From IMG/VR virus record IMGVR_UViG_3300036861_000357, positions 1 through 52,607 of that record: a stretch of 52,607 nucleotides of DNA; one strand, written 5' to 3'. How positions within the stretch are numbered: position 1 is the first letter of the stretch; every line of letters begins with the position of its first letter. The stretch comes from a virus. The translations under genes were made by a program, and so were the position numbers. The notes below the pieces were generated by a model that was not told the origin of the DNA, did no database searches, and was given only the letters and a program-made list of their open reading frames with translations. Of the stretch, positions 821-52,352 are shown piece by piece.

Positions 821-1940
821 CGAGGGAGAGAGCGCCAAAGTGAGCGCGGAGGTAATCGTTGAGCGCTGGTGCTCAATTCTGGTCCCATCGCGAGACGCCG
901 ATGCACTTTACACCGTCTATGTCGTAGATCGCGACAGGCTCGTCTCACTCATCGAATCGGCTCTCCAGTCGCGGGACGAGCGCATCCGCGCCTTGCAGGA
1001 GGAGGTGGAGAGGCTGACCCGCGAGTGCCAGCGTGAGTCCGACAACGCAGCGCGCATGGACAAGCTGTGGGCCGAGGAAGAGACGCTGCACAAGACCGCC
1101 GAATCCGCGCTCTCCGCCGCCCGTGCCAACTTGGAGCGGCTGACGTTGAAGTGCCAGCGGTTGCGTGTGGCCGTTCGCACGACAAACAAGGCGCTAGAGA
1201 CCCGGCGCTATCAGCAGGACCGCAAGCGGCTCGGACACATACTTGCCACGACGGAACGACTACAGGCCGAAATCATGAAGCTCCACCCGGTGGGCGACTA
1301 CCTGTGGGTCAAGCGTGCCGACCTGGAGCGGGAGCGGGCCAAGCGGGAGGCCGCCGTATGGGAGAGGGACGAGGCACGGGAGGCGCTACGCCGAATCAAG
1401 GATCTCCCGCGTGGGAGGCGGCCGGCCATTACTGCGACTGACGCTCGCAAGATCGCTCGTACCGCCCTCCGCGCGTCCCGCCAGCCTGCCACGCCGGCCC
1501 GAGAGGAGATGTCCGATGGGACTTCCACGAAACCCGCGAGCGAAGTGCGCGTGCGGGAAGATGGCGAAGGCGCTGGTGGGGCTAACCCCAAAGTGCTCGG
1601 CATGCACCAAGAAGGCGCGACGGTAGCGGGGAGCGCTCCCACGGAGGAGCCGCCACGCTGGCTGGAAGGTACCTGGCCCGCCGATTGTGTCCAGCGCGCG
1701 TTCGTGGACGGCGCGAAGTGGTGGCAGTACGCGGCGCACGGCTGCACGGCGTTCGCGGTTGAGCGTGACGAGATGGAGGCCGAGGCGGTGCGGCGTTACG
1801 GGGAGCCCCCCAGCGCCCCGGCCCCACAGGTCCACACGGAAGCATGTAAGAGCGCGCGGTTGGACGGCGACGTGGCGCCTTGCATCTGCGCACCCCCATC
1901 GGAGCCGCCCGCCCCGGTGCCCGGCCGGGAGAAGGGATGA
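807..1940 (+). CDS. coiled-coil protein with a C-terminal AFVDGAKWW-type region
   Basis: 377 residues from ATG 807; the frame is open further upstream, but 807 overlaps the previous gene only slightly. Residues about 50-220 form a long charged coiled coil rich in Glu, Arg and Leu. The C-terminal part contains AFVDGAKWWQYAAHG and an acidic helix ending in RRYG, a pattern often seen as a separate small phage protein. The segment between them (about residues 235-290) is low complexity and overlaps a second ORF in another frame at 1516-1626. Ends in an ATGA overlap with the PP-loop enzyme. Function unknown; it may be a fusion. Confidence 0.6.
   Translation: MTGDNEGESAKVSAEVIVERWCSILVPSRDADALYTVYVVDRDRLVSLIESALQSRDERIRALQEEVERLTRECQRESDNAARMDKLWAEEETLHKTAESALSAARANLERLTLKCQRLRVAVRTTNKALETRRYQQDRKRLGHILATTERLQAEIMKLHPVGDYLWVKRADLERERAKREAAVWERDEAREALRRIKDLPRGRRPAITATDARKIARTALRASRQPATPAREEMSDGTSTKPASEVRVREDGEGAGGANPKVLGMHQEGATVAGSAPTEEPPRWLEGTWPADCVQRAFVDGAKWWQYAAHGCTAFAVERDEMEAEAVRRYGEPPSAPAPQVHTEACKSARLDGDVAPCICAPPSEPPAPVPGREKG
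1516..1626 (+). CDS. nested zinc-knuckle mini-protein
   Basis: 36 residues lying wholly inside 807-1940 in another frame. It starts with ATG 1516, seven bases after a strong Shine-Dalgarno run (AGAGGAG, 1502-1508). The product begins MGLPRNPRAK and has CACGK followed by CSACTKK, a compact zinc-ribbon pattern with a basic end. The host frame is low complexity here, so this frame looks the more protein-like of the two. Translation is inferred. Confidence 0.5.
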   Translation: MGLPRNPRAKCACGKMAKALVGLTPKCSACTKKARR

Positions 1941-2641
1941 AGCACATCGTTGCCCTTTCCGGCGGCAAGGACTCGACGGCAATGGCGCTCCGGCTGGTGG
2001 AGGTCGAGCCGCGCGATTACGAGTTCGTTTGCACGCCGACCGGCAACGAGCTTCCCGACATGGTGCAGCATTGGGTCCGGCTCGGTCGTCTCCTCGGCAA
2101 GCCACTTCGCCCGCTTGTTACCGGCGTCAGCCTCGGCTCCCTGATCCGCTGGTGGAACGCGCTCCCGAATTGGCGGCAGCGGTGGTGTACGCGGGTGCTC
2201 AAGATTGAGCCATTCCAGCAGTACGTAGCCGCGAACAGCCCAGCGACGATCTACGTGGGCATCCGCGCCGACGAGCAGGACCGAGAGGGTGTCGAGTACG
2301 AGAACCGACGTTTCCCGCTGGTTGAGTGGGGATGGGACAAGGCGAAGGTGCTTTCCTATCTCGCGGAGCGCGGGGTGGAGATTCCGAAGCGAACCGATTG
2401 CGCGGCGTGCTTCTTCCAAACTCTCGGGGAATGGTGGGCGCTGTGGCACGACCACCCGGCCGACTATCTCGAAGCCGAAGCGTGGGAGGCGCAAACAGGC
2501 CACACGTTCCGTAGCCCGCAGCGCGACACGCATCCGGTGGCATTGAAGGATCTGCGGGCCGAGTTCGAGGCGGGCTACGTGCCGAAGGCGCGTGCGACGA
2601 TGGACGACCGGCCGCGCATGTGTGGGACGTGTGCGCGATGA
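1937..2641 (+). CDS. PAPS reductase-like PP-loop protein
   Basis: 234 residues. The N-terminal SGGKDS (residues 8-13) is the PP-loop that binds the adenylyl nucleotide in the PAPS reductase/adenylyltransferase superfamily. Two Cys pairs, RTDCAACFF near residue 153 and MCGTCAR at the C-terminus, could hold an Fe-S cluster or zinc. The start ATG overlaps the previous stop. Phage members of this family are usually not true sulfate reducers; suggested roles include sulfur modification of nucleic acid or other sulfur transfer. The enzyme family is clear; the substrate is not. Confidence 0.8.
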   Translation: MKHIVALSGGKDSTAMALRLVEVEPRDYEFVCTPTGNELPDMVQHWVRLGRLLGKPLRPLVTGVSLGSLIRWWNALPNWRQRWCTRVLKIEPFQQYVAANSPATIYVGIRADEQDREGVEYENRRFPLVEWGWDKAKVLSYLAERGVEIPKRTDCAACFFQTLGEWWALWHDHPADYLEAEAWEAQTGHTFRSPQRDTHPVALKDLRAEFEAGYVPKARATMDDRPRMCGTCAR

Positions 2642-2873: not shown

Positions 2874-3040
2874 CCTCCCGCCTCCAGGACGAGCCGATAG
2901 TCTACACCACGAAATGCCGCACGGCCGATGGCGCAGTCTACGACCTAGGCGAGTTTCAACACCCACCGAAGCATGAGCACCCCGTCGCATGTGCGGGCTG
3001 CCTTGTGGTGGATGCGTGGACGGAAAGGACGACCCGATGA
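2870..3040 (+). CDS. small hypothetical protein
   Basis: 56 residues beginning MTSRLQDEPIVYTTKCRTAD. It carries three Cys and a cluster of His (HPPKHEHPVACAGC), so it may bind a metal. It is joined to its neighbours by ATGA overlaps on both sides, which is the main reason to accept so short a gene. No family is recognised. Confidence 0.55.
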   Translation: MTSRLQDEPIVYTTKCRTADGAVYDLGEFQHPPKHEHPVACAGCLVVDAWTERTTR

Positions 3041-3243
3041 GCCTCCGCCTCGACTCGCGCGGTTTTGTCTATGTTGGGGTGATCCTGCCGGCCCTCGTTT
3101 CCGGGGCCTGCACTCACCTCCGGGACCTGGACTGCCGCATCGCCCCATGCCCAGCAGGTCAGATCTGCAAGCCGCAGCCGGGTGGTGAGCCGCTCGGCTG
3201 GATCTGCGTTCCTGTCCCCAAGCCATCGCCCTCCCCTGGCTGA
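3037..3243 (+). CDS. small secreted or lipoprotein-like protein
   Basis: 68 residues from ATG 3037, overlapping the previous stop. The N-terminus has a short hydrophobic stretch (VYVGVILPALVSGAC) ending in a Cys that resembles, but does not perfectly match, a lipobox. Four further Cys follow and the C-terminus is Pro/Ser-rich. It is likely exported or membrane-attached and may be disulfide-bonded. It is the last gene before the terminase, and its role is unknown. Confidence 0.55.
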   Translation: MSLRLDSRGFVYVGVILPALVSGACTHLRDLDCRIAPCPAGQICKPQPGGEPLGWICVPVPKPSPSPG

Positions 3244-3253
3244 ACCGAGGCTC

Positions 3254-3274
3254 TGGAGGTGTAAGATTCCTCCA
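3254..3274 (+). promoter_or_regulatory. hairpin enclosing the Shine-Dalgarno site of the terminase gene
   Basis: TGGAGG at 3254-3259 and CCTCCA at 3269-3274 are perfect inverse complements around a nine-base loop. The second arm abuts the ATG at 3275. The only good Shine-Dalgarno candidate is in the first arm, so folding would hide it. This suggests RNA-level control of terminase synthesis, which is an inference. Confidence 0.5.
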
Positions 3275-4303
3275 ATGCCACGCCCCATTCGCCGCCCGCC
3301 TCGCCCCTTCGAGCTTCCAGACCTCACCGATGACGCTCAGCGGATGCGGGATCTCTCGAACACCGACCTCGACCTGCTCGCCAAGCTCCAACCTTCGCTC
3401 CGCCGGCAGATCGAGATGGTCAAGGAGGTGCGAGCGCGACGCCTCGCGATGCTGGCGGAGTCCAAGTCCGCCCTCGCTGCTGCCAACCCAAAGAAGTTCC
3501 TCTGGGAGGCGCTTGGGATGCGCCCCACCGACGTCGCTGCCAACGCCTACAAGATCCGTTCCCCGATCACGGACGACCAGGAGAAGGTGCTCGACTCCTT
3601 TGTCCGCTACAAGCGCACCGCCGTCCCATCGGGCCAGGGCGCTGGGAAGACCTGCCTCGCCGCTGTCTGCGCCCTCTGGTTCCTCTACCGCTACGAGCCC
3701 TCTATCGTCATCACCACCGCTACCACCTGGACCCTGGTCGAAGCCCAACTATGGCGGGAGATCCACGACCGCTTCATCAAGGCCCGGATTCCCCTCCCCG
3801 GCAAGCTCATGCAGACCGAGCTACGGATCTCCCCTCGCCACTTCATGCTGGGGATCTCCACCGACGACGTCTCGCGCTTCCAGGGCTTCCACGCGCCCCA
3901 CGTCCTGGTCATCATCGACGAGGCCACTGGCGTGCGCGAGGAACTCTGGGACGGCGCGGAGGCGATCACCGTGGGCCGAGAGGATCGGATCCTTGCCTTC
4001 GGCAACCCAACCGATCCCGGCTCGCGTTTCTACCGCTCCTGTCAGTCTCCGCTCTGGAACGTGGTGCCCATCGACTGTCTGAACCACCCCAACGTCCTCC
4101 ACAACGACCCCGGCATCATCCCCGGCGCGGTGACGAAGGAGTGGTGCGATGACCGCCTCGAAGAGTACGGTGCCCAGGACCATCCCTTGTACCTGGCCCG
4201 TGTCCGGGGCGAGTGGCCGAAGCAGGGTGAATTCTCCCTCGTCTCGATCGCTGATGTGGAGCGGGCGCAGCAGTGGGATGAGCGGCACCAGGAGGTCGCG
4301 TGA
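3275..4303 (+). CDS. terL: terminase large subunit, ATPase half
   Basis: 342 residues. The packaging ATPase domain has Walker A SGQGAGKT near residue 119 and Walker B VLVIIDEATG near residue 210. Downstream is the FGNPTDPGSRFYR segment, a usual coupling region. The ORF ends in the linker (SIADVERAQQW) where a normal TerL would continue into its nuclease. The nuclease half is the next gene, overlapping by four bases. It would power DNA translocation into the prohead through the portal. No small terminase subunit was recognised upstream. Confidence 0.9.
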   Translation: MPRPIRRPPRPFELPDLTDDAQRMRDLSNTDLDLLAKLQPSLRRQIEMVKEVRARRLAMLAESKSALAAANPKKFLWEALGMRPTDVAANAYKIRSPITDDQEKVLDSFVRYKRTAVPSGQGAGKTCLAAVCALWFLYRYEPSIVITTATTWTLVEAQLWREIHDRFIKARIPLPGKLMQTELRISPRHFMLGISTDDVSRFQGFHAPHVLVIIDEATGVREELWDGAEAITVGREDRILAFGNPTDPGSRFYRSCQSPLWNVVPIDCLNHPNVLHNDPGIIPGAVTKEWCDDRLEEYGAQDHPLYLARVRGEWPKQGEFSLVSIADVERAQQWDERHQEVA

Positions 4304-5118
4304 GCACCTCCACCCGCCTCGCCAGTGCCCGCCTCGTCACCCACGCCGGCAAGGGGATCGCCCTTGGCCTCGACGTCGCTGGCCCCGGCACGGACCTCGC
4401 CCCCTGCTGGTCGATCTGCGACGGGCGGGCCAAGCTCGAATGGTGGGTGGTCCACAACGACCTGATGGACACCGCCGACCGCGTCGCTCGCACCGTCAAC
4501 GATTACGAGGGCCGGGTGAAGGTGGTCTGCATCGACGACACTGGGATCGGGGGCGGAGTCACCTCGCGCCTCCGCCAACTCCAGCGCTGGGAGCGCTCGC
4601 GCCTGAACTCCCCTGAGTCTGGCCCCGGCTACCTCTCCGCCTGCACCATCGTGGCAATCAACTTCGGGCAGGAGCCGCGCAACCCGGCCAAGTTCCGCCG
4701 GGCGAAGGACGAACTCTGGTGGACGCTCTCCGAGAGCCTGAAGAAGACTCTGCTTGGTCTCCCGCCCGATTCAGAATTGGCAAAGGCGCGTCTCCCGAAG
4801 GGCAATTCCCTCATCGCGCAACTCGTCTCCGCGATCTACGAAACTGACGCCTCCGGCAGGATCAAGGTCTACGACCGCCGAGACCCGAAGTCCTCCTCAG
4901 AGAAGCTCAAGGCTCTCCCCACCAAGTCTCCGGACCTCGCGCACTCCCTCATGCTTGCCAATTGGGGCTTCCACCTCATGCGCGCGCAGTGGGACGAGGA
5001 GCAGCCGCGCACGATCTTGGAGAAGCGCGCAAAGGAGTGGCGCGAGCGCATAAAGAAGGATATCCAGCAGCACTTCCGGCCCGACGAGAGGGGGCCGGAT
5101 AACTTCGATTTCTGCTAG
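4300..5118 (+). CDS. terL: terminase large subunit, RNase H-like nuclease half
   Basis: 272 residues from GTG 4300, preceded by a strong AGGAGGT site inside the end of the ATPase gene. The RNase H-fold nuclease acidic motifs are visible: LGLDVAGPGTD near residue 23, VVCIDDTGIGGG near residue 74 and SPDLAHSLMLANWG near residue 208. It would cut concatemeric DNA at packaging start and end. With its own ribosome site and coupled start it looks like a genuine separate gene, although a single sequencing indel could give the same picture. Confidence 0.85.
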   Translation: MSTSTRLASARLVTHAGKGIALGLDVAGPGTDLAPCWSICDGRAKLEWWVVHNDLMDTADRVARTVNDYEGRVKVVCIDDTGIGGGVTSRLRQLQRWERSRLNSPESGPGYLSACTIVAINFGQEPRNPAKFRRAKDELWWTLSESLKKTLLGLPPDSELAKARLPKGNSLIAQLVSAIYETDASGRIKVYDRRDPKSSSEKLKALPTKSPDLAHSLMLANWGFHLMRAQWDEEQPRTILEKRAKEWRERIKKDIQQHFRPDERGPDNFDFC

Positions 5119-14638: not shown

Positions 14639-15367
14639 TTGGCGACCGAAGACCTCGGCAACGGGAAGGAAATGATCGATGCCCTGATTCAGTTTGGGCT
14701 CGAACTCGACCTCGCCGACGCCTACGTCACTACCGAGTGGATCCCCAGGGCCAAGTTTGCCGTGCAGATCGCCGTCAACGAGTTCTGGAGGGCGGGTGAT
14801 TGGGACATCAAATTCCCCTCCACCACCCTCACCCTCCTCGCCGCCAACTCGGACTGGGCCGAGGCCCCCGCCGACTTCCTCCGAGTGGGCGCGCACGGGG
14901 GACTCTACGTCTTTGGTAAGACCAAGATCGACTACCGGGACCCAGAGAGATTCCTGCGCGAGCGGCGGGTGATCGGGAACTCGTACGCGACCTACCCCCG
15001 CTTCTACACGATCCGCGGGCAGACCGCCAACCGCCTCCCGAAGATCCTCTTCATGCTTCCCATCGACCCAGCCGGAGCCAACCTCGACATCGACCTCTTC
15101 TACGAGGCCCGCCGCCCCCAGGTGCTCTACGCCACTACCGCCGGGGCAAATGGGATCGACGTCATCCCCGTCGAGTACCGTCACGACATCATCTACGTTG
15201 GGGCGCTTGACTACCTCCGTTACGACGGTGGGGACGCGCGCACTATCATGCAGATCTCCCCGGGCTTCAAGCGGGCAGTGCTGGAGGCGGCGGGTCAGAG
15301 GCTCCACCAACTCGATGGTGTCCAGCAAATCGCGGACGAAGGTATCGCCGATGAAGGGATGTGGTGA
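14639..15367 (+). CDS. head-to-tail adaptor, T7 gp11-like
   Basis: 242 residues from TTG 14639, supported by GAGGTGAT six bases upstream. The pattern of an N-terminal helical bundle (AVNEFWRAGDWD), then beta strands with APADFLRV and a run ending in LDIDLFYEARR, matches the T7 gp11/P22 gp4 class of tail adaptors. These join the portal to the tail nozzle. It is the first gene of the tail module. Assignment is by pattern. Confidence 0.55.
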   Translation: MATEDLGNGKEMIDALIQFGLELDLADAYVTTEWIPRAKFAVQIAVNEFWRAGDWDIKFPSTTLTLLAANSDWAEAPADFLRVGAHGGLYVFGKTKIDYRDPERFLRERRVIGNSYATYPRFYTIRGQTANRLPKILFMLPIDPAGANLDIDLFYEARRPQVLYATTAGANGIDVIPVEYRHDIIYVGALDYLRYDGGDARTIMQISPGFKRAVLEAAGQRLHQLDGVQQIADEGIADEGMW

Positions 15368-15368
15368 G

Positions 15369-16112
15369 ATGAAGAAGCTCTGGGCTGGCGTGCTCGCCCT
15401 CCTCCTGTTCCCGGTGCCGCTCCTGCCCCAGCCGGTGGGTCCGCTCAAGACGGTTCGCGTGGTGGTGGAGAACTGGGACCTTGACGCCACCACCTACACC
15501 TATCCCCTGACTTCCCCTGCGATCATGGGGCCGGGCCAGCGGGCGGTGACAAGTGGCGCCTCTACCACCGTGACGAACTGCGCCCTCTGCACCGCGCCCT
15601 TCGCCGGGGTGGCGGTCGGCGACGTCATCATCTTCTTCGTCAACGATACCCAGGTGTACCGCTATGTCACGGCGAAGGCTTCCGACATCTCGATCACGGT
15701 GGATACTGCGATCGACCTCTCCACCAATGGGACGGTAGGCTACTCCTTCGTATACCGGACAGTCACCATCGGGACCGGAGCCACAAACGGCTGGTTCCAG
15801 GTCGGAGGTGGTGGCATCTCCAGCGCCGTCACCTACCAGATCGACCAGTTGAACGCGACAGGTGGGGTGGACGTGCGGATCGAGTGCCGGATGTCCTCCT
15901 CCGCTAGCGGGCTCTCCGCTCCGATCAGCGTCTTCGAGCGCAATGTGACCACGGCTGGGATCGGGACCGCGGCCTCCACCGGGCGCACCACCGTCGAGAT
16001 TTTGCCCCACTTTACCGATTGCAGGGTCGGGATGAAGTTCGGGTCCGCCGACGACGGGACCGACACCGGGGCAGCGGCCGAGGTCATCAACATCTACGTG
16101 AACACGTACTGA
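15369..16112 (+). CDS. virion-module protein with Sec signal peptide
   Basis: 247 residues. The N-terminus MKKLWAGVLALLLFPVPLLPQP is a typical Sec signal (two Lys, a Leu-rich core, then polar residues). The mature part is beta-rich and Thr/Gly-rich with Cys pairs (NCALC, later CRMSS and DCRVG) that could form disulfides outside the cytoplasm. ATG 15369 follows GGTGAG. It is the first of three consecutive genes with signal peptides. The composition suits a fibre, adhesin or surface protein; exact role unknown. Confidence 0.65.
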   Translation: MKKLWAGVLALLLFPVPLLPQPVGPLKTVRVVVENWDLDATTYTYPLTSPAIMGPGQRAVTSGASTTVTNCALCTAPFAGVAVGDVIIFFVNDTQVYRYVTAKASDISITVDTAIDLSTNGTVGYSFVYRTVTIGTGATNGWFQVGGGGISSAVTYQIDQLNATGGVDVRIECRMSSSASGLSAPISVFERNVTTAGIGTAASTGRTTVEILPHFTDCRVGMKFGSADDGTDTGAAAEVINIYVNTY

Positions 16113-16124
16113 GGGGGGAGAAGC

Positions 16125-17132
16125 GTGAACAAGAAGCTCTCGGCGATCACCGCGGTCTTCCTTGGCCTCGCTGCGCTGGTGGGAGCGGAGCCGGTGGAGT
16201 CCTCCCTCAAGCTCTTCTACATTGGCCAGGTCAAGGGAGCGGGTGGGCGGGTGTACTCGGCTTACAAGATGCCGCTGTTCGACGTGGTGGCGCTGAGAGG
16301 TGGCGGGGCCGTCACGGCCAGTGGTAACAACAATTTCACCGGCACCAACACCTTCCTCGACACGAATTTCTCCATCCTCGATGACGGGGACACGACGAAG
16401 GCGGTGAAGTTCCAGGTCTCCGGCGTCACCACTGGGAACACGGTCACGCCGTTCACCTTCCAAGGCACAGCCGCCGCCCCTGCGATAGGAATCCCGGATG
16501 GGACGGCTCTTGTCCCGGCAATCAACTTCCAATCTGATGCGGATGGGACCGGGGGTGGGCTCTTTCGCTCAGCAGCGAATCAGATCAGCCTCAGTATCAA
16601 CGGGGCGGAGCAGATTCGATGGGGAGCAAGTGCCCTGTATCTGTCAGGAAACTTGGCAGTCAATACCCACGTCACACGGTTAGCATCAGGATCTACTATT
16701 GGCTGGTCAACCACCTCTGCTATATCTGGGCAATTAACTGTCCAAGAGACATCGGTTGGGGCTGCCAAGACGTTAATCGATGCTACTGCTGTGAACTTCG
16801 TTCAAGTTTCAGTAGCTTCCAACTCCAGTGCCTATGTTGACATCACATATGGCGTGGAAGCTCAGAACGGGACCGACTGGCAAGTCACGGGGGGGACGGC
16901 CCATGTAGCTATTGTCAACAAGGCCGGCACGGAGACGTGTTCCGCGATCACCGAAGTCGGGGAAGTGACCCAGGCATCGCTCGGTACTCTTACCGCAACA
17001 ATCACCTGTGACACTTCTCCTACCAATGGCATCAACTTTCAGATGAACGCGGACTCCTCGCTCAATGTGGCCCCTACGATGGTTTACCGGGTGCTGAGGA
17101 TGGTGGGGAGTGGGAATATCACGCCGCAGTAA
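16125..17132 (+). CDS. tail-fibre-like protein with Sec signal peptide
   Basis: 335 residues from GTG 16125 after GGGGGAG. The first 21 residues (MNKKLSAITAVFLGLAALVG) form a Sec signal. The body has phage-fibre signatures: NNNFTGTNTFLDTNF, DDGDTTKAVKFQVSG and GGGLFRSAANQISLSINGAE, common in trimeric beta-helical fibres. About 16590-16870 is clearly poorer in GC than the surroundings, suggesting a recently acquired receptor-facing block. A fibre that is secreted rather than assembled in the cytoplasm would be unusual. Confidence 0.7.
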   Translation: MNKKLSAITAVFLGLAALVGAEPVESSLKLFYIGQVKGAGGRVYSAYKMPLFDVVALRGGGAVTASGNNNFTGTNTFLDTNFSILDDGDTTKAVKFQVSGVTTGNTVTPFTFQGTAAAPAIGIPDGTALVPAINFQSDADGTGGGLFRSAANQISLSINGAEQIRWGASALYLSGNLAVNTHVTRLASGSTIGWSTTSAISGQLTVQETSVGAAKTLIDATAVNFVQVSVASNSSAYVDITYGVEAQNGTDWQVTGGTAHVAIVNKAGTETCSAITEVGEVTQASLGTLTATITCDTSPTNGINFQMNADSSLNVAPTMVYRVLRMVGSGNITPQ

Positions 17133-17148
17133 GACTTGGAGGAACCAG

Positions 17149-17535
17149 ATGAAGAGGTTGGTGGGCGCGTTTGGTGTCGTCGTGGCTCTGTTCGGTGGTG
17201 CCTACGCTCTTGCCCAGCAGGCCACCCTCAGTACCCCAGTGACCCGCGCCTCCGAGGACAACCTCCGGGTCGAGACCTACTTCGCCACCCGCGACTCCGG
17301 TGGGCGATGGGAGGTCCAGGTCTCCGTCCGAGATAGCAGCGGGAACGAGATCCGGCGTGTGAACCACTCCGGCCCCGACGCCGCGCACTCTGGGGCCACT
17401 GCGCTCGCGTTCGTGACCGCGCAAATGACAATCCGAGCGAGCGAGACGGGAGGCAATGCGCGCAAGATGGACTTCCGGATCCTGGGCTTCCTGCTCGACA
17501 ACGGCTACCTCTCCGGAGTGACGCTGGTCCCGTAA
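17149..17535 (+). CDS. small protein with Sec signal peptide
   Basis: 128 residues from ATG 17149 after GGAGG. The signal peptide is MKRLVGAFGVVVALFGGAYALAQ with an AXA-type cleavage site. The mature part (about 105 residues) is beta-rich and polar with no Cys. It is the third consecutive exported product, so the trio may form one periplasmic or surface complex. No family is recognised. Confidence 0.6.
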   Translation: MKRLVGAFGVVVALFGGAYALAQQATLSTPVTRASEDNLRVETYFATRDSGGRWEVQVSVRDSSGNEIRRVNHSGPDAAHSGATALAFVTAQMTIRASETGGNARKMDFRILGFLLDNGYLSGVTLVP

Positions 17536-17544
17536 CCATCGCCC

Positions 17545-17976
17545 GTGCTCCCGCTCATGCTAATGACCACTCCGACCCCGGAACCAGCACCGTTCGTGGG
17601 GCCACCCCCACCCAGGACTTCGGCCGCCGCAGTCCCAGGGTTCACCCACGAGGAGTCTCGTCCCGCTGGTCTCCATCCTGCACTCAAGTACGGACCCGCC
17701 GCCGCACACCTCGCCGACGCGCTCAGCACGCTGAAGGTGATCCAGGGGGGTGGGCGAGAACTCGACCCGGTCCTAGAACCATTCGCGGACAATCCGGCCG
17801 CTCTCGTCGGGACCAAGGTCATTGGTGGGCTGGCGATGGGACTCCTCGCCGATCTCCTCGCGAAGAAGGGCCACCGTAATTGGGCGAAGGCCGCCGCTGG
17901 TCTCAACATCGGAGTGCCGCTCGGGGCCGCCGGCCTCAACCTGAGCGGCGCAGTCAAGAAGAGGGAGCAACGGTGA
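17545..17976 (+). CDS. small membrane protein of the lysis region
   Basis: 143 residues from GTG 17545 (ATG 17557 possible). After a Pro-rich N-terminus there are two weak hydrophobic stretches, one in ALKYGPAAAHLADALSTLK and one in TKVIGGLAMGLLADLLAKKG. The pattern ADALST..VIQGGGRELDPVL is typical of small phage membrane proteins near holins. It may support membrane permeabilisation; this is inferred from position. Confidence 0.55.
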   Translation: MLPLMLMTTPTPEPAPFVGPPPPRTSAAAVPGFTHEESRPAGLHPALKYGPAAAHLADALSTLKVIQGGGRELDPVLEPFADNPAALVGTKVIGGLAMGLLADLLAKKGHRNWAKAAAGLNIGVPLGAAGLNLSGAVKKREQR

Positions 17977-17979
17977 CGC

Positions 17980-18489
17980 ATGGATCTCTCCCCCACAACG
18001 ATCGGTTCGACGGCGTTCGGTGGCGCGGTCATAGCGGTCCTCGCTGCGATAGCCGGCCGCTACTTCGTCCCGAAATGGATCGCTGCGCGGGAGAGGTTCG
18101 AGAAGGAGATCACGGAGCAACTCCAGGGACTAATCCAGGAGCGAGCCCACCTTCTTCGCGAGCAGTCGGCCGAGAACAGGCGGCTCCAGGAGCGCATGGA
18201 TACCGCCGACCAGGCCATTCGCATGGAAATGCTTGGGAAGGATGCCGTCCTGAGGGACCTCTGGCACGCGGAGGCCGACCGATTCAATGTAGCGGTTGGT
18301 AAAGCCATGGCTCGAACTGAAGAGAACGCTCGGAATATCGATGGGATCTACACTCGTCTGAAGACGATCGAGGATCGGGCCGACGAGCGCCACGAGAAAA
18401 TCTCCGACGACCTGCACAAGCTCGACGTCACCATAACGCGGCTTGCCTCTGGAGTGGAGAACCTCATTCGGAAGAGTGGGAATGTCTGA
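17980..18489 (+). CDS. membrane-anchored coiled-coil protein, spanin- or holin-like
   Basis: 169 residues. One N-terminal transmembrane helix (residues 12-28, AFGGAVIAVLAAIAG) is followed by a long charged coiled coil to the end. This is the layout of i-spanins (Rz) and of some holin-class proteins. The endolysin gene lies 230 bases downstream, which supports a lysis role. No outer-membrane spanin partner was identified with confidence. Confidence 0.55.
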   Translation: MDLSPTTIGSTAFGGAVIAVLAAIAGRYFVPKWIAARERFEKEITEQLQGLIQERAHLLREQSAENRRLQERMDTADQAIRMEMLGKDAVLRDLWHAEADRFNVAVGKAMARTEENARNIDGIYTRLKTIEDRADERHEKISDDLHKLDVTITRLASGVENLIRKSGNV

Positions 18490-18491
18490 TC

Positions 18492-18716
18492 GTGGAGCCA
18501 GTCCTGTGGTGGATCATCGGTGCCCTCCTGACCGCGCTCGGGGCCGTGCTCGGGGTGGCGCTGTGGATGGCCCAGCGCTGGCAATCCCGCGTCGAGAACC
18601 GACTGCGCCGGCTTCACCACCAGGCCAACCTCCTCCAGTGGCTGGTCTTCGTTGTCAAGGATCTGTACCGCAAGGTCTTCGGACGCGAGCCGCCGCCACC
18701 CCCCAAGGAGTCCTGA
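18492..18716 (+). CDS. small holin-like membrane protein
   Basis: 74 residues from GTG 18492. One strong transmembrane helix (residues 5-26, WWIIGALLTALGAVLGVALW) is followed by a basic amphipathic helix and a Pro-rich, charged C-terminus. It directly precedes the endolysin. Size, topology and place fit a class II/III holin or holin accessory. This is inference without a sequence signature. Confidence 0.55.
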   Translation: MEPVLWWIIGALLTALGAVLGVALWMAQRWQSRVENRLRRLHHQANLLQWLVFVVKDLYRKVFGREPPPPPKES

Positions 18717-18720
18717 TCTG

Positions 18721-19236
18721 ATGATTCTGGAGAGTCTCATCCCGAGTCTCCGGGGCGCAGAGGGGTGGAGCCCGACCGTCTACATTGACACCACTGGTAA
18801 TCTCACCATCGGATACGGCTTCAATCTTGGGAAGCTCCACGTATCCGCCGCCGGCACTGTGAAGGTCGATCCCGTCAACGGGATATCTGTCGCGGTTGGT
18901 GAGCAACTCATTTTGTCCGAAGTCGTCGAGGTCATAACTGCCATTCGGGCCTCGCTCCCCTGGTGGGACCGCCTCGACGACGTCCGCCAGGAAGTCCTCG
19001 CCGATATGGCCTACAACCTGGGGATGCCCGGCCTGCTGAAGTGGCCGATCTTTCTCCGGCAGGTCAGGACCGGAGACTACGCCTCTGCCGCTGGCAACAT
19101 GCGTTCAACCCTCTGGTATCGGCAGACGGGGCGTCGCGCCCGCCGATTGGTTAAGATGATGGAGACTGGGCAGGATCAGCCGCCGCTCAAGCTCAGGCCG
19201 AAGAAGTTGAAGAAGCTGAAAAAGGAGGAAAAGTGA
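18721..19236 (+). CDS. endolysin, T4-type lysozyme (GH24)
   Basis: 171 residues from ATG 18721. The catalytic triad of GH24 is intact: E14, D23 and T29 in the spacing E-x8-D-x5-T (GAEGWSPTVYIDTTGNLT). The helical DMAYNLG motif follows near residue 97. It would hydrolyse the glycan strands of peptidoglycan. There is no signal peptide, so it needs a holin to reach the wall. The C-terminus is very Lys-rich and may aid binding to the wall or membrane. The next gene begins in its last four bases. Confidence 0.88.
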   Translation: MILESLIPSLRGAEGWSPTVYIDTTGNLTIGYGFNLGKLHVSAAGTVKVDPVNGISVAVGEQLILSEVVEVITAIRASLPWWDRLDDVRQEVLADMAYNLGMPGLLKWPIFLRQVRTGDYASAAGNMRSTLWYRQTGRRARRLVKMMETGQDQPPLKLRPKKLKKLKKEEK

Positions 19237-33143: not shown

Positions 33144-33611
33144 GTGACAACCCGTCGACGACATCCGATCCCGGCTTCTAATTTCCGGGCTCTCATCGCT
33201 GGGTTGCCGGATGAGATGCAGCGTCCCCTCGGGCGCTTCGCGGAAGCCCTAGAGAAGTTCGCTCGTAATGTCCTCGACATGCACGACAGCGAGCCGGGGC
33301 CGCACGCGAGCACCCACGCCCCGAACACACTGGACGACCCGCTCGCGACGGCGGCACCGTCCAACGACGTGGACGGGGATGCGCCGCTCGCTGGCAGCCT
33401 CGGGACTCTCCTCCGCTCCGACGCCAAGATGCGGCTCGGGATCACCACTACCAAGGGGGACTTGATCGTCCGCTCCACGAAAAACGATCGACTCGCAGTC
33501 GGGGTGAACGGAGAGGTGCTCACCGCAGACTCTACCCAGGCTTCTGGGGTGAAGTGGGCGGCGGTGGCTGCGGGTGATCTGGACGCGCAACTCATGGCGA
33601 TAATGCTCTGA
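33144..33611 (+). CDS. tail-fibre-like protein
   Basis: 155 residues from GTG 33144 after GGGAGG. The C-terminal third carries the phage-fibre signature KGDLIVRSTKNDRLAVGVNGE followed by VLTADSTQASGVKWAA, a common beta-strand block in tail fibres. The N-terminal half is helical and could attach to the tail. It is short for a full fibre, so it may be an adaptor or tip. Confidence 0.65.
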   Translation: MTTRRRHPIPASNFRALIAGLPDEMQRPLGRFAEALEKFARNVLDMHDSEPGPHASTHAPNTLDDPLATAAPSNDVDGDAPLAGSLGTLLRSDAKMRLGITTTKGDLIVRSTKNDRLAVGVNGEVLTADSTQASGVKWAAVAAGDLDAQLMAIML

Positions 33612-33614
33612 GCC

Positions 33615-33935
33615 ATGCACACCGCGCTAGCCATCGCAGACGGTCAACTCCCTGCGGCCAAGGGCACCCTCTACACAGTCCCGGCCGCGACCATCGTCGT
33701 AATCACCAGCTTCTCCCTCGCCCACGCTGGGGCAGCGGATCGGACCGTGAACCTGTACGTGAACCGCTCAGGGACCTCGCGTAGGATCATCGGGAAGGAC
33801 CGGACCCTGGCGGTGGGGGAGTCGATCGAGAAGGACAAGACTTCGATCGTCCTAGAAACGGGGGACCTGATTGAAGGGGATGCTTCAGCCGCAAGCGAAA
33901 TCGACTATGTCTTCAGTGGCTTCAAGAGCACGTAG
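33615..33935 (+). CDS. beta-sandwich virion protein, decoration- or fibre-like
   Basis: 106 residues. The pattern LPAAKGTLYTVPAAT, then AGAADRTVNLYVNRSG and a final GDLIEGDASAASEIDYVFSG is a recurrent small phage structural domain of unknown fold detail. It probably decorates the capsid or fibre. The next gene starts inside its last 29 bases. Confidence 0.65.
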   Translation: MHTALAIADGQLPAAKGTLYTVPAATIVVITSFSLAHAGAADRTVNLYVNRSGTSRRIIGKDRTLAVGESIEKDKTSIVLETGDLIEGDASAASEIDYVFSGFKST

Positions 33936-36608: not shown

Positions 36609-36682
36609 TTATCCACAGGCGAAGTCTCTTCGCTTCAGTCCGCAAATAAATTTTTCTGCTTGATTTCTCTTAACTTCTCTTA
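36609..36682. other. candidate replication origin: DnaA box and AT-rich repeats
   Basis: A perfect DnaA box TTATCCACA lies at 36609-36617. It is followed by a six-base-stem hairpin (GCGAAG/CTTCGC, 36619-36633) and an AT-rich run at 36641-36682. The run ends in two 10-base-spaced direct repeats of TTCTCTTA (36665-36672 and 36675-36682). This sits at the 3' end of the DNA polymerase gene in a strongly GC-rich genome. A DnaA-dependent origin is inferred. Confidence 0.5.
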
Positions 36683-39600
36683 GACAGCCTTTAACTGGTC
36701 AAACTCGATCTCATCCAAGAGTTCGTCGAGGTCTTCGTCGTACTCATCGATTGGGATGAAATCTTCGCGTAGGCCAGTTTCCCCTTGCGCCGCTCGGTCG
36801 AAGTCGGCTAGTCTCGGCTCCGTGAGCTTAGCCAGGTCGAAGTGCTTGGTCATTCCTTCGAGGTTCGCATGAGAGTCGAACACCGCCCAGTTCCTCCCTA
36901 CCTTGACATCGACACCCATCTGGAGATGCGATCCCAGACCCCATTCCGGCGGGCATGGCTGTTCTTCGATGGGTCTAGTCATTGCCGAGCGGAGCTTCTC
37001 GATTACTACTTCTACTCTCGCTGTGGGCACTTCAAGCAAGAGGGAATCGTGGATCAAGGCCCGCAGGGGGGTCTTCCCGTAGAACTCCTCGCCAATGAAG
37101 TTTGGATGATCCGGATCGAATAGCTCCAGCATCGCTTCCTTGATGACACCGGCCGCGACCGACTGCTGGAAGAAGGCCACGCACCGCTTTCCATCCTCCC
37201 CCAGGCCCACCTTGAAGTTCTTGCCCGCGATCTTGACGATCTGCGAGGCCCTCGTCATTCCCTTGACCGGGCGGTATTCGAGGACGTTGTAGAAGTAGTG
37301 CCGGTAGCCGTAGGGGTGGAAGCCAGGGAGGGGGTTGTAGCGGGCGTTGTCGATCTTGCCCCCGAGGATCCGGTAGCGGGCGGCGTGCTCCCGAATCTGG
37401 GCGTGCCACTTCGGCAGCCCCGGCACCACCGAGTAGTAGATGTCCTGGACGCGCTGAGCGATCTTCTCAGTGGGGAAGACGTCGGGGTACTGGAGAACCA
37501 TCCCGCGGACGGTGAGCCCGTTGTTGTTCCCGTTCACCGCGCACTTGACCTGCTTGTAGGTGGCCTCTTGGTTGGTCTTGATCTCCTCGAAGTAAGCCTT
37601 CAGGTCCGGGTCCGACCACTTCAGGTCCGCCGGCCGACCGATCGCGACCGAGGTGACGAAGGCGTGAATGGAGAGCTTCGAGAGCCTGATGTAGTTCGGG
37701 TCCCCAATGTACCAGCCGACCTCGGTGGGCTCCATCGCGTTGTAGTCGGCCTCGACCAGGAGGCAGCCGGGGGACGCCTCCACGCACAGGCGGAAGCCGG
37801 CGGCGGGGTTCTTCTCCTCCTTCTTCCCAGCCTCGGTGATGATCGCGCGATCGGCGACGACGTTCTGGAAGTTCGGGGTCTGGGAGGTCCGGGCGGTCGA
37901 GGGAGCGTGCGTGGTGGTGCAATGGAGCCGGTGATCCTGCTGCGACCGCGGGTCCTCGGCGAGGCGCTTCTGGGTCCCCACCGCGTAGGTCCGCCAGACC
38001 TTGTCGATGATCCGGATCTCCCGGAGGCGAGGGTAGAGCGGGTCGCGCGTGGTCTTGATGAGGTGGGTGATGGTGTCCTTGTTCGAGGAATCCTTCTTGC
38101 TCTTCTTGTCCTTCTTGGGGACGTGCCCGCGGAACCTGATATAGGCCAGCACCTGTGGCGGTGACCCGGGGTTGAAGGACTCCCTCCGGTAGAACCTCTG
38201 GACCTCCCGCTCCGCCATCACCACCCGCGCGGTAAGACCACGGTCCTCGCAGCGGTGCGTCTTGGAGATCTGCTCGGCCCCGCAGGTCTCGCAGACTTGG
38301 ACGAGGGTGGTGACGACGCGCTCCAAGACATCGGGCTCGGGCGAGCCGTCGTCGAGGAGCGGGCGCTTCTTCAGCCCACCATCCGCGTTCCGGGTTGCCC
38401 AAGCGGTCATCAGTTCCTCGGGGACGATGGCCTGGATCTCGGTATTGATCCGCTTGTGCTTCTCCTCTAGCGACGCGGTGAACTCCTTGAGCCGCTCCTC
38501 GTTGATGTTGATCCCCACCTCCTCCGCCGGCCAGAAGGCCCTCTTGTCTAGGAGGTAGACGTGGCGGTAGTAGGGGGTCTCCCAGAGCCCGAGGCGCTGG
38601 AGCTTGTCTGCGATCCAGAAGCCTATCCGGAGGGTCCTGGGGCCGTCGTTGGCGGCGTACCAGACCGGGTCGGTATGGGCGCGGTGCTTCCAAGGCTCTA
38701 GCCTTGGGGAGACGAAAGGGGAAATGAAGCCCAGCCCCCGTGGGAGGTCGGACTGGTAGCGCTTCCACATCCACATCGAGTCGAAGACCGGCCCCCGGAC
38801 CTCGTGGCCGGCGTGTCGTAGGCGAGGGATATCGTAGGGACCGTTGTGGAAGAGCTTGACCCCCCGCGAGGCGAGCACCTTGGTGATGAGCGGGACATAG
38901 GGGCCGGAGTGTGGGACGGTGATCCCCTGGTCAGGGTGGCAGGCGAAGTTGACCCGGATGATGTGCCACGACTTGGCCTCGCGCGACTTGATCTCGCCCT
39001 CGTCGGTCTGCCGCTCCTTGTCTGGGGTCTCGACGTCCACCGCCAGCCAGGTCTCGTCCATATCCGCAGAGAGATAGGAATCGACCCACTCCTCGAACCA
39101 CTCGATCGGGGGGTCGAGGACGAGGTCGAGTTCCTCGCGCTCGAAGCCGTGCTGAGCGATCTCGAAGGCGTGCTGGAGGTCCCAGGACGAGGTCCCGATC
39201 AGGTTGAACGCACCGCGGGATATGTGCGATGGATGGAAGGTGGGGACGACCCAGAAGCGGTCGGAGGGGTCCCGGTTGACGGTGCCGTGGAAGTCCTGGA
39301 CCCTTACCCCAGAGCCGCTCGGATAATCGAGGAGCCAGCGGAGCGGGATCCCCCCGAGCGTCACCACCACCTTGTCCTTGGCCCCAGGTGGAGTGTCGGC
39401 CAGCCAGCGGTCGAGAGCGGGCTGCCAATGGCGCGTGCGGCAGGTCGTGATCGCCTCGGACTCGTAGACGGCGCCGTCGAGGATGTTGTTGGGGGGCCGG
39501 CACCAGAGGGTATTCATGATGAGGTGCGACTCCCGGGTGATCGAGTTCATCCGGAAGACCCTGTTTAGTAGGGAGCCGGCGCGCCCGCGGAAGGGCTCGG

Positions 39601-39757
39601 AGAGGTAGACCTCGTCCTCGCCAGCCGCCTCGCCAAGGAAGAGGATGCGCGAGGAGGTGGGGCCGAGCTTGGGGACGAACCCGGTGGGGGAACCATAGGG
39701 CTCTCGGTAGAGGACGCAGGAGGAACACAACGCGGGAGGTTTTGGGGTGACGGGCAC
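36680..39757 (-). CDS. polA: family A DNA polymerase fused to a family 4-like uracil-DNA glycosylase
   Basis: 1025 residues from GTG 39757. Residues 1-205 are a UDG-type domain: C11, C14, C86 and C106 for a 4Fe-4S cluster, GEAAGEDE at 42-49 and PTFHPS at 172-177. Residues 235-375 are the 3'-5' exonuclease (DVET 241-244, D309, D371). Polymerase motif A has D671 (EADYNAME), motif B spans about 734-746, and motif C is HDS at 903-905, where HDE is usual. A CETC-x-HRC insert lies at 489-503. It would replicate the phage DNA and could recognise uracil. The fusion is known in other phages. Confidence 0.88.
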   Translation of the reverse strand: MPVTPKPPALCSSCVLYREPYGSPTGFVPKLGPTSSRILFLGEAAGEDEVYLSEPFRGRAGSLLNRVFRMNSITRESHLIMNTLWCRPPNNILDGAVYESEAITTCRTRHWQPALDRWLADTPPGAKDKVVVTLGGIPLRWLLDYPSGSGVRVQDFHGTVNRDPSDRFWVVPTFHPSHISRGAFNLIGTSSWDLQHAFEIAQHGFEREELDLVLDPPIEWFEEWVDSYLSADMDETWLAVDVETPDKERQTDEGEIKSREAKSWHIIRVNFACHPDQGITVPHSGPYVPLITKVLASRGVKLFHNGPYDIPRLRHAGHEVRGPVFDSMWMWKRYQSDLPRGLGFISPFVSPRLEPWKHRAHTDPVWYAANDGPRTLRIGFWIADKLQRLGLWETPYYRHVYLLDKRAFWPAEEVGININEERLKEFTASLEEKHKRINTEIQAIVPEELMTAWATRNADGGLKKRPLLDDGSPEPDVLERVVTTLVQVCETCGAEQISKTHRCEDRGLTARVVMAEREVQRFYRRESFNPGSPPQVLAYIRFRGHVPKKDKKSKKDSSNKDTITHLIKTTRDPLYPRLREIRIIDKVWRTYAVGTQKRLAEDPRSQQDHRLHCTTTHAPSTARTSQTPNFQNVVADRAIITEAGKKEEKNPAAGFRLCVEASPGCLLVEADYNAMEPTEVGWYIGDPNYIRLSKLSIHAFVTSVAIGRPADLKWSDPDLKAYFEEIKTNQEATYKQVKCAVNGNNNGLTVRGMVLQYPDVFPTEKIAQRVQDIYYSVVPGLPKWHAQIREHAARYRILGGKIDNARYNPLPGFHPYGYRHYFYNVLEYRPVKGMTRASQIVKIAGKNFKVGLGEDGKRCVAFFQQSVAAGVIKEAMLELFDPDHPNFIGEEFYGKTPLRALIHDSLLLEVPTARVEVVIEKLRSAMTRPIEEQPCPPEWGLGSHLQMGVDVKVGRNWAVFDSHANLEGMTKHFDLAKLTEPRLADFDRAAQGETGLREDFIPIDEYDEDLDELLDEIEFDQLKAV

Positions 39758-51180: not shown

Positions 51181-51193
51181 CGGAGCCTCCGAT
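51179..51193 (-). promoter_or_regulatory. palindrome covering the ribosome site of 51013-51180
   Basis: ATCGGAG-C-CTCCGAT is a seven-base perfect inverted repeat with a one-base centre. It includes the GGAGG site and the first base pairs of the start codon. It could be a protein or RNA control site for this small gene. Confidence 0.35.
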
Positions 51194-52062
51194 CAAAAAA
51201 TGAAACTGTTTAATTGGAATCCCGCTGAGTTCTTATGCCCCCCGCCTCCGTACCTCTTTGCAATCTCAGAGACGTCAAGCTCTCCTCTTGAGCGGAGGGA
51301 GTATTGAAACTTTCCATCCGCACGTTGCCACCACCCAACCGAGATGAAGCTCTCGTGCTTGTCCATCAGATGCTCAAGTAGCTCGCTGATGTCGCATTGG
51401 GGCGCGCACACGATAGGAACTTCGGCGCATCCAAGGACGTCAAGGATTCTCGCGTTCTTTCCAACCTCGACGCAGTATTGCTTGACCTTCATTGCCGTGA
51501 TGAGACCACGCTCGATCAGCATGTCCTCGGTGAGCCCGATCAGCTTCTTCCATTCCGCGAACTCGAACGGGATTGCCCCAAGGTAGGCGTTGATCTCTTG
51601 GCTATGTGGTAGCTTCCACCGCCAGAGGTCCCGGTCCTCGACGTAGTTCACAAAGAGTGGTCGCGGGCATCCTTCGTTGAAGTAATCCCAAGCAATCCCG
51701 GCCCCCGAGCGTCCCATGTCGAAGATGACCTCGTCGGGGCTTTCGCTGCTGACCCCCAACCGACCAATATCATCGACCAAGTCCCGAAGATCGGCCTCTG
51801 CCGTCTTGTGGTGGTCGAGAACGTGGATCACCGAGGTGGTTGCGAGCTTCAACATCTTTTCGCGCGGGTAGGAGAAGTCGAGGATGAAGACGTGACCACC
51901 TCCCCGCTCAGGTGGATCGGTCCCGTAGTAGGCGGGGTGGAAATCTGCTTTTCCCTCGAAATAGAGCCACGCGCAAAATGCTGCGGCGAAACCATCTCGG
52001 CAGCCCGCGTGGTAGATAACGAGGGGTGCTCGTGTCTTGGGGAATCGGCGATCCCTTACCAC
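51193..52062 (-). CDS. DHH-family phosphoesterase
   Basis: 289 residues from GTG 52062, overlapping the upstream stop by seven bases. IYHAGCRDGFAAAF near residue 17, LDFSYPREK near 61, the LDHHKT signature (DHH at 83-85), and a C-terminal DHHA1-type GGGGHKNSAG motif are all present. Relatives include RecJ exonuclease, nanoRNase and c-di-nucleotide phosphodiesterases. Its GC content is visibly lower than in neighbouring genes, suggesting separate origin. Substrate unknown. Confidence 0.85.
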   Translation of the reverse strand: MVRDRRFPKTRAPLVIYHAGCRDGFAAAFCAWLYFEGKADFHPAYYGTDPPERGGGHVFILDFSYPREKMLKLATTSVIHVLDHHKTAEADLRDLVDDIGRLGVSSESPDEVIFDMGRSGAGIAWDYFNEGCPRPLFVNYVEDRDLWRWKLPHSQEINAYLGAIPFEFAEWKKLIGLTEDMLIERGLITAMKVKQYCVEVGKNARILDVLGCAEVPIVCAPQCDISELLEHLMDKHESFISVGWWQRADGKFQYSLRSRGELDVSEIAKRYGGGGHKNSAGFQLNSFIF

Positions 52063-52352
52063 GATGCCCTCACCACCGCCGCCACCTCTGGCCCACCACC
52101 GAAATTGTACCTGGCCCTCGCCACCACTGCCCACTCCGGACCGCGCCCGTCGAGGTTGGAGAACTTGTGGGCGACCATCACCCCACCCCCCTTGTTCGTG
52201 ATCTCTAAGAAGGCGTCGCCGTGGCCGGGGGCCAGTCCAGCGAGGGCGTCCTCGACGGCCCTGCGTAGAGCACCGTTCCCGAACTCCGAGACGGGGAGGG
52301 GATCGGAGAGGCGCTCAAGAGGGATAGACGGGAAGGGCAGGATGTTCCCCAC
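52056..52352 (-). CDS. small hypothetical protein
   Basis: 98 residues from GTG 52352, with GGGAGG eight bases upstream and a TAGTG overlap with the regulator's stop. The N-terminus is Pro/Leu-rich and the C-terminal half beta-rich (DAFLEITNKGGGVMVAHKF, then WAVVARARYNFGG). No family is recognised. Confidence 0.6.
   Translation of the reverse strand: MGNILPFPSIPLERLSDPLPVSEFGNGALRRAVEDALAGLAPGHGDAFLEITNKGGGVMVAHKFSNLDGRGPEWAVVARARYNFGGGPEVAAVVRASW

Follow-up and report, generated by a model that had tools for sequence, protein, structure and literature searches.

Textbooks describe the assembly of tailed phages as cytoplasmic, and they present the phage proteins that do leave the cytoplasm as single small proteins for lysis or exclusion. 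Cor and the T5 protein Llp are superinfection-exclusion lipoproteins, and such exclusion proteins are small. Another exclusion lipoprotein, Lpp of the mEpimmI phages, is encoded in the structural gene cluster (PMC11893012). The four proteins described here, P1 to P4, resemble Lpp, Cor and Llp in their predicted export by Sec and in having their genes among virion genes; the lipoproteins have a lipobox and are small, whereas P1 to P4 have no lipobox, are 128 to 519 amino acids long and are of beta type. Lom of phage lambda is likewise signal-bearing and encoded inside the tail gene module, but is annotated as an outer-membrane protein, unlike P1 to P4, and no similarity between Lom and P1 to P4 was found although the lambda proteins were included in the database searched. 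Our search of the open-access literature found no paper on exported fibre-like proteins in tailed phages.

Judged by the major capsid protein, the nearest described genome is ctLwi270 (MW202554.1) from Manatee Spring, with homologous capsids of merely 22-25% identity. The virion module of ctLwi270, like that of the stretch analysed here, includes an unbroken run of three signal genes; a homologue of P4 (UOF78508, 34% over 207 amino acids) opens the run, and an extra signal gene of ctLwi270 stands just 5' of a presumed lysis gene. In contrast, the run comes after the portal gene, neither of its other two members is homologous to P2 or P3, and the third encodes a Laminin_G_3 lectin fold and adjoins a signal-less GH28/pectate-lyase-like (tailspike-like) gene. 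A 195-amino-acid signal-bearing gene of ctLwi270 (L002 14828-15415) is absent from the GenBank annotation. In both genomes, the ATPase and the nuclease of the large terminase are apparently encoded by two separate genes (ctLwi270: L002 7338-8993 and 9186-9875). The second gene of ctLwi270 alone matches Terminase_6C; in the second part of the other we saw by eye a GLDVAGPGTD motif and nothing more.

Signal-bearing genes in the window

The window, that is, the whole IMG/VR record of 52,607 bases, has a podovirus-like layout (Table 1). P1 to P3 are consecutive on one strand, separated by gaps of 1 to 16 bp, and lie between a putative adaptor gene and the lysis region. Queries of IMG/VR with the window's capsid, portal, DNA polymerase, P1 and P2 returned zero relatives.

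Table 1. Features of the window (aa, amino acids; res, residues)
Feature	Position	Strand	Remarks
PAPS-reductase-like gene	1937-2641		near left end
75-aa ORF	3016-3243		5' of terminase; possible signal, 5 Cys
Large terminase, apparent ATPase gene	3182-4303		
Large terminase, apparent nuclease gene	4300-5118		
Portal	6328		PHROG match
Major capsid protein	10698		PHROG match
Putative tail adaptor / head-completion gene	14639-15367	+	by position only, no family match; 0 Cys
P1, 247 aa	15369-16112	+	Sec-type N-terminus, beta-type sequence; 4 Cys including CALC
P2, 335 aa	16125-17132	+	predicted cleavable Sec signal; Thr/Ser/Gly-rich, fibre-like; 2 Cys near C-terminus
P3, 128 aa	17149-17535	+	predicted cleavable Sec signal (ALA/QQ); no Cys
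Lysis region	17545-19236	+	directly 3' of P3; genes at 17545, 17980, 18492, then lysozyme
Holin/spanin candidates	17980, 18492	+	N-terminal-membrane proteins
GH24 lysozyme	18721-19236	+	PHROG match
Internal virion protein, 2287 aa	26280-33143		PHROG match; zero Cys
P6, small protein	33144-33611	+	tail-fibre type repeat; no signal
P5, small beta protein	33615-33935	+	directly 5' of P4; no signal
P4, 519 aa	33907-35466	+	predicted Sec signal, Cys-pair repeat domain; 8 Cys
DNA polymerase	36680-39757	-	PHROG match; uracil-DNA-glycosylase-like domain (res 29-199) fused to family A polymerase domain (res 508-678)
Helicase	43470	-	PHROG match
DHH phosphoesterase-like gene	51193-52134	-	near right end

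Signals were scored on every gene of the window with a home-made script and weight matrix of the von Heijne type, and the home-made gene caller and the signal test were identical in cases and controls. As a check, the test found Lom and Bor in lambda and, as the sole positive in T7, the spanin gp18.5. Seven reference phages gave 6 positives among 409 genes. The control set comprised 59 other virus stretches, mostly from isolate genomes, that match a degenerate DNA pattern from the C-terminus of P3, none of them being P3-like; here 6 of 996 genes (0.6%) were positive and there was no run of three. Given this background and the absence of triple runs in the controls, the signals of P1 to P3 are not a matter of chance.

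All four proteins have a positive n-region and a hydrophobic core, and small residues occupy the -3/-1 positions in P2, P3 and P4. The earlier note had ascribed clear signal peptides to the products of the three consecutive genes, whose coordinates and reading frames proved correct. For P2 (MNKKLSAITAVFLGLAALVGA|EPVE, predicted cleavage at VGA|EP) and P3 (MKRLVGAFGVVVALFGGAYALA|QQAT) this holds. The N-terminus of P1, MKKLWAGVLALLLFPVPLLPQPVGPLK, combines an h-region and a charged n-region with a proline-rich end, and the residues at -3/-1 are not small, so that it fails the strict test; since it offers no site for signal peptidase I, P1 is probably a signal anchor, exported but held in the membrane. 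The cysteines noticed in P1 are indeed there, four in number and with a CxxC among them. A lipoprotein identity was rejected for all four proteins, which have no lipobox and no cysteine near the end of the signal.

The tail-fibre signatures claimed for P2 turned out to be weak: the protein has no match in PHROG, Pfam or PDB, and the baseplate protein gp7 of P-HM2 appears at E=0.3. Fibre matches in these three databases were likewise absent for P1, P3 and P4. Nothing usable as a relative of P1 to P3 was found in PHROG, Pfam, PDB, IMG/VR patterns or a tblastn search of 50,697 phages, and in Nitrospirota genomes there was no relative of P1 and a match to P3 at chance level only. Nor do P1 to P3 show significant similarity to any P4-type protein, with which they have only export and the late-operon context in common. 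Thus, the case for their export is made by the N-termini themselves, by the ribosome-binding sites and by the genes found alongside, while the arguments from conservation and from cysteines come from P4 and from other phages.

An alternative is that the N-termini are no export signals but simply the hydrophobic beginnings of ordinary proteins of the virion, or that they result from wrongly chosen start codons. Besides the want of homologues, the missing cleavage site of P1 and an internal GTG of P2 just past the signal would fit such a reading. However, P2 and P3 are preceded by good ribosome-binding sites (GGGGGGAG and GGAGG) at the starts that carry the signal, which rules against wrong start codons, and the 0.6% background together with the conserved signals and the even-cysteine bias of the relatives described below makes this explanation extremely improbable.

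Two proposed forms of the P4 repeat family

The highest signal score in the whole window belongs to a fourth gene, P4, which the earlier note had not listed and which starts at 33907 or at GTG 33916. Residues ~92-190 of P4 form a repeat domain with cysteine pairs (domain E=5e-44; pattern C..GC.....D.AFT.GT). The domain was found in 12 other phage records, in which an N-terminal signal or anchor is kept. Its sources were ctLwi270, two IMG/VR contigs from the protein search, nine loci from the alignment search (one contig being repeated) and two contigs of a Nitrospiraceae MAG; the reading frame was inspected in each of these cases. Nearly all of these relatives begin with a classical signal, for example MKKILLALLLLASPLAAQ|EP, MKRLALAGLLLLLPAGAWAQ|VS, MRRWALVGALLLGLAGPATAQ|MQ and MLNRLAKFCVLIGLLAAPVYAQ|TP; the relative in locus G010 has a transmembrane anchor in its place, and in locus G003 the signal lies some 45 residues past the first possible start. 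The relatives are mosaic and range from 195 to 1052 amino acids, so that the signal is among their most constant parts.

Homologues lacking the hydrophobic start had been named in the earlier note as evidence against export. As P1 to P3 have no detectable relatives, this was tried on P4, and such homologues do exist. They carry the P4 repeat domain in ct7ZZ929 (UOF79032, HMM E=2e-13) and ctMEh928 (UOF79906, E=7e-11), while those of Mwe-JY08 and CL131 are more distant and tied to ct7ZZ929 by tblastn only. But they are also devoid of the cysteine pairs, with 1, 0, 0 and 1 cysteines in the whole proteins of ct7ZZ929, Mwe-JY08, CL131 and ctMEh928, so that they do not refute export but provide a natural control. 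The member in ct7ZZ929 sits in the virion module, between the capsid gene and a 'phage stabilization' gene. For CL131, published virion mass spectrometry reports 23 virion proteins; the P4-related protein of this phage is signal-less. Among the phage records searched, no isolate had the exported form. The computation thus supports the existence of a putative cytoplasmic form of the family, with neither signal nor cysteine pairs, and of a putative exported form with both. P4 itself bears every mark of the latter: the repeat domain, the signal and an even number of cysteines.

A small signal-less beta protein is often encoded directly 5' of the P4-type gene, as in the window (P5) and in loci G002, G003, G007, G009 and G010. 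In the Nitrospiraceae MAG (JAHFES01, locus G011), P4-type signal genes are present on both contigs, C156 and C56, the former being phage-like and 50 kb long. This hints at Nitrospirota as hosts, with a binning artefact as another possibility.

Signal-gene clusters and cysteine parity in other phages

Across the 12 phages with a P4-type gene, 55 of 717 genes (7.7%) passed the strict signal test, a share to be read with the fact that these phages were picked for holding such a gene, itself usually signal-bearing. The signal genes are not scattered: 18 adjacent pairs were counted where 4.5 were expected, and 20,000 shuffles gave a maximum of 14. Apart from the run in ctLwi270, there are two separate runs of three in G005, four signal genes in a row in G002, three within four genes in G009 and, counting one with a weaker signal, three start-stop-overlapping genes in G001. 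Similar clusters of predicted signal genes thus recur in late operons of unrelated soil and groundwater phages. A general habit of spring and groundwater phages was considered and rejected: ctfzr933 has 0 signal genes, and ct7ZZ929 has none at the starts checked.

The clusters are often located beside lysis genes, for example in the window, G003 and G005. Possibly, then, the proteins are accessories of lysis and egress, assisting in the breakdown or removal of cell wall and outer membrane, a role for which the position of P1 to P3 directly 5' of the lysis genes and the similar neighbourhoods in G003 and G005 could be quoted. Enzymatic or spanin-like features are absent, however, the proteins consist of beta repeats of up to about 1050 amino acids, and P4 lies far off, at the module's other end. 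We consider such a role very unlikely.

In exported proteins whose folding takes place within an oxidising compartment, cysteine counts tend to be even (PMC7678975). Among the mature signal proteins of at least 100 amino acids in the 12 phages, the cysteine count was even in 40, odd in 3 and zero in 6, in contrast to 148, 147 and 124 for the other proteins of the same phages (binomial p=3e-9, Fisher p=1.6e-8). With the P4 family left out the ratio of even to odd was still 29:3 (p=2.6e-6), and within that family all 13 signal-bearing members have an even number after the signal, between 4 and 12. The computation therefore supports a cysteine pattern of the disulfide type that is tied to the signal. 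Taken together, the signals conserved among P4 relatives, the parity of the cysteines and the clustering make export and disulfide folding, as predicted properties, well supported by computation. Export, as proposed in the earlier note, is thus strongly supported through P4 and other phages.

Possible roles in the host envelope

It appears that in some tailed phages a share of the late proteins is delivered to the envelope of the host cell. We tentatively favour, as the reading that may well apply, that P1 to P4 are fibre-derived binding proteins which are exported via Sec and act on the envelope. They would be expressed late, judging from operon position, and leave the cytoplasm through Sec; signal peptidase would cut P2, P3 and P4, while P1 would be kept in the inner membrane by its anchor. 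Folding with disulfides in the oxidising periplasm would apply to P1, P2 and P4. Once outside the cytoplasm, the four proteins might bind the host's own envelope, and their most likely role would be to mask receptors or glycans on the surface of the infected cell and on cell debris, protecting against superinfection and loss of progeny. At lysis they would be released along with the virions.

This reading is favoured because those exported phage proteins from structural clusters whose function is known are superinfection-exclusion factors. Fibre ancestry is suggested by the repeat style, the gene context and the signal-less relatives in virion modules; it had to be judged from sequence style and context since the AlphaFold models of P2 and P4 are poor (mean pLDDT 37 and 36). 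Some observations count against the favoured reading: P1 has no cleavage site and P3 no cysteine, P1 to P4 have neither a lipobox nor an outer-membrane anchor that would account for their reaching receptors on the outer face, and the known exclusion proteins are small lipoproteins.

It might also be that the proteins are virion fibres matured in the periplasm, which gained signals and cysteine pairs, oxidise there, and dock onto the virion at lysis as disulfide-hardened parts. Consistent with this, the genes belong to the virion operon, virion modules also house P4 relatives devoid of a signal (ct7ZZ929), the architecture is mosaic, repeat-rich and fast-diverging, and the clusters often neighbour lysis genes. 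Docking would, however, have to take place after lysis. To our knowledge there is no precedent in tailed phages, and we regard this route as rather unlikely.

A third possibility, which we judge distinctly improbable, is that the proteins are extracellular or surface adhesins altering the stickiness of infected cells or lysogens to surfaces, particles or each other. The lectin-fold member of ctLwi270 would suit such a function, and the repeats and sizes resemble those of bacterial adhesins. P3 showed a very weak similarity to Ig-like repeats of the Marinobacter Lap adhesin, but this non-specific result was added up from four marginal matches, the best single domain having E 0.27, and we discarded it. 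Furthermore, a surface anchor is absent, the window genes searched yielded neither an integrase nor a repressor, and adhesion would be of little use to a lytic cell.

In contrast to the textbook picture of phage export, large mosaic proteins with paired cysteines form a module here that recurs in late operons of diverse uncultured phages. The matched putative exported and cytoplasmic forms of one family make the relocation of a fibre-type protein to the envelope testable, and two purposes are open to test: the guarding of receptors or the maturation of virion parts at the envelope. In addition, the combination of a signal with an even cysteine count may serve as a cheap computational marker for exported phage proteins in metagenomes.
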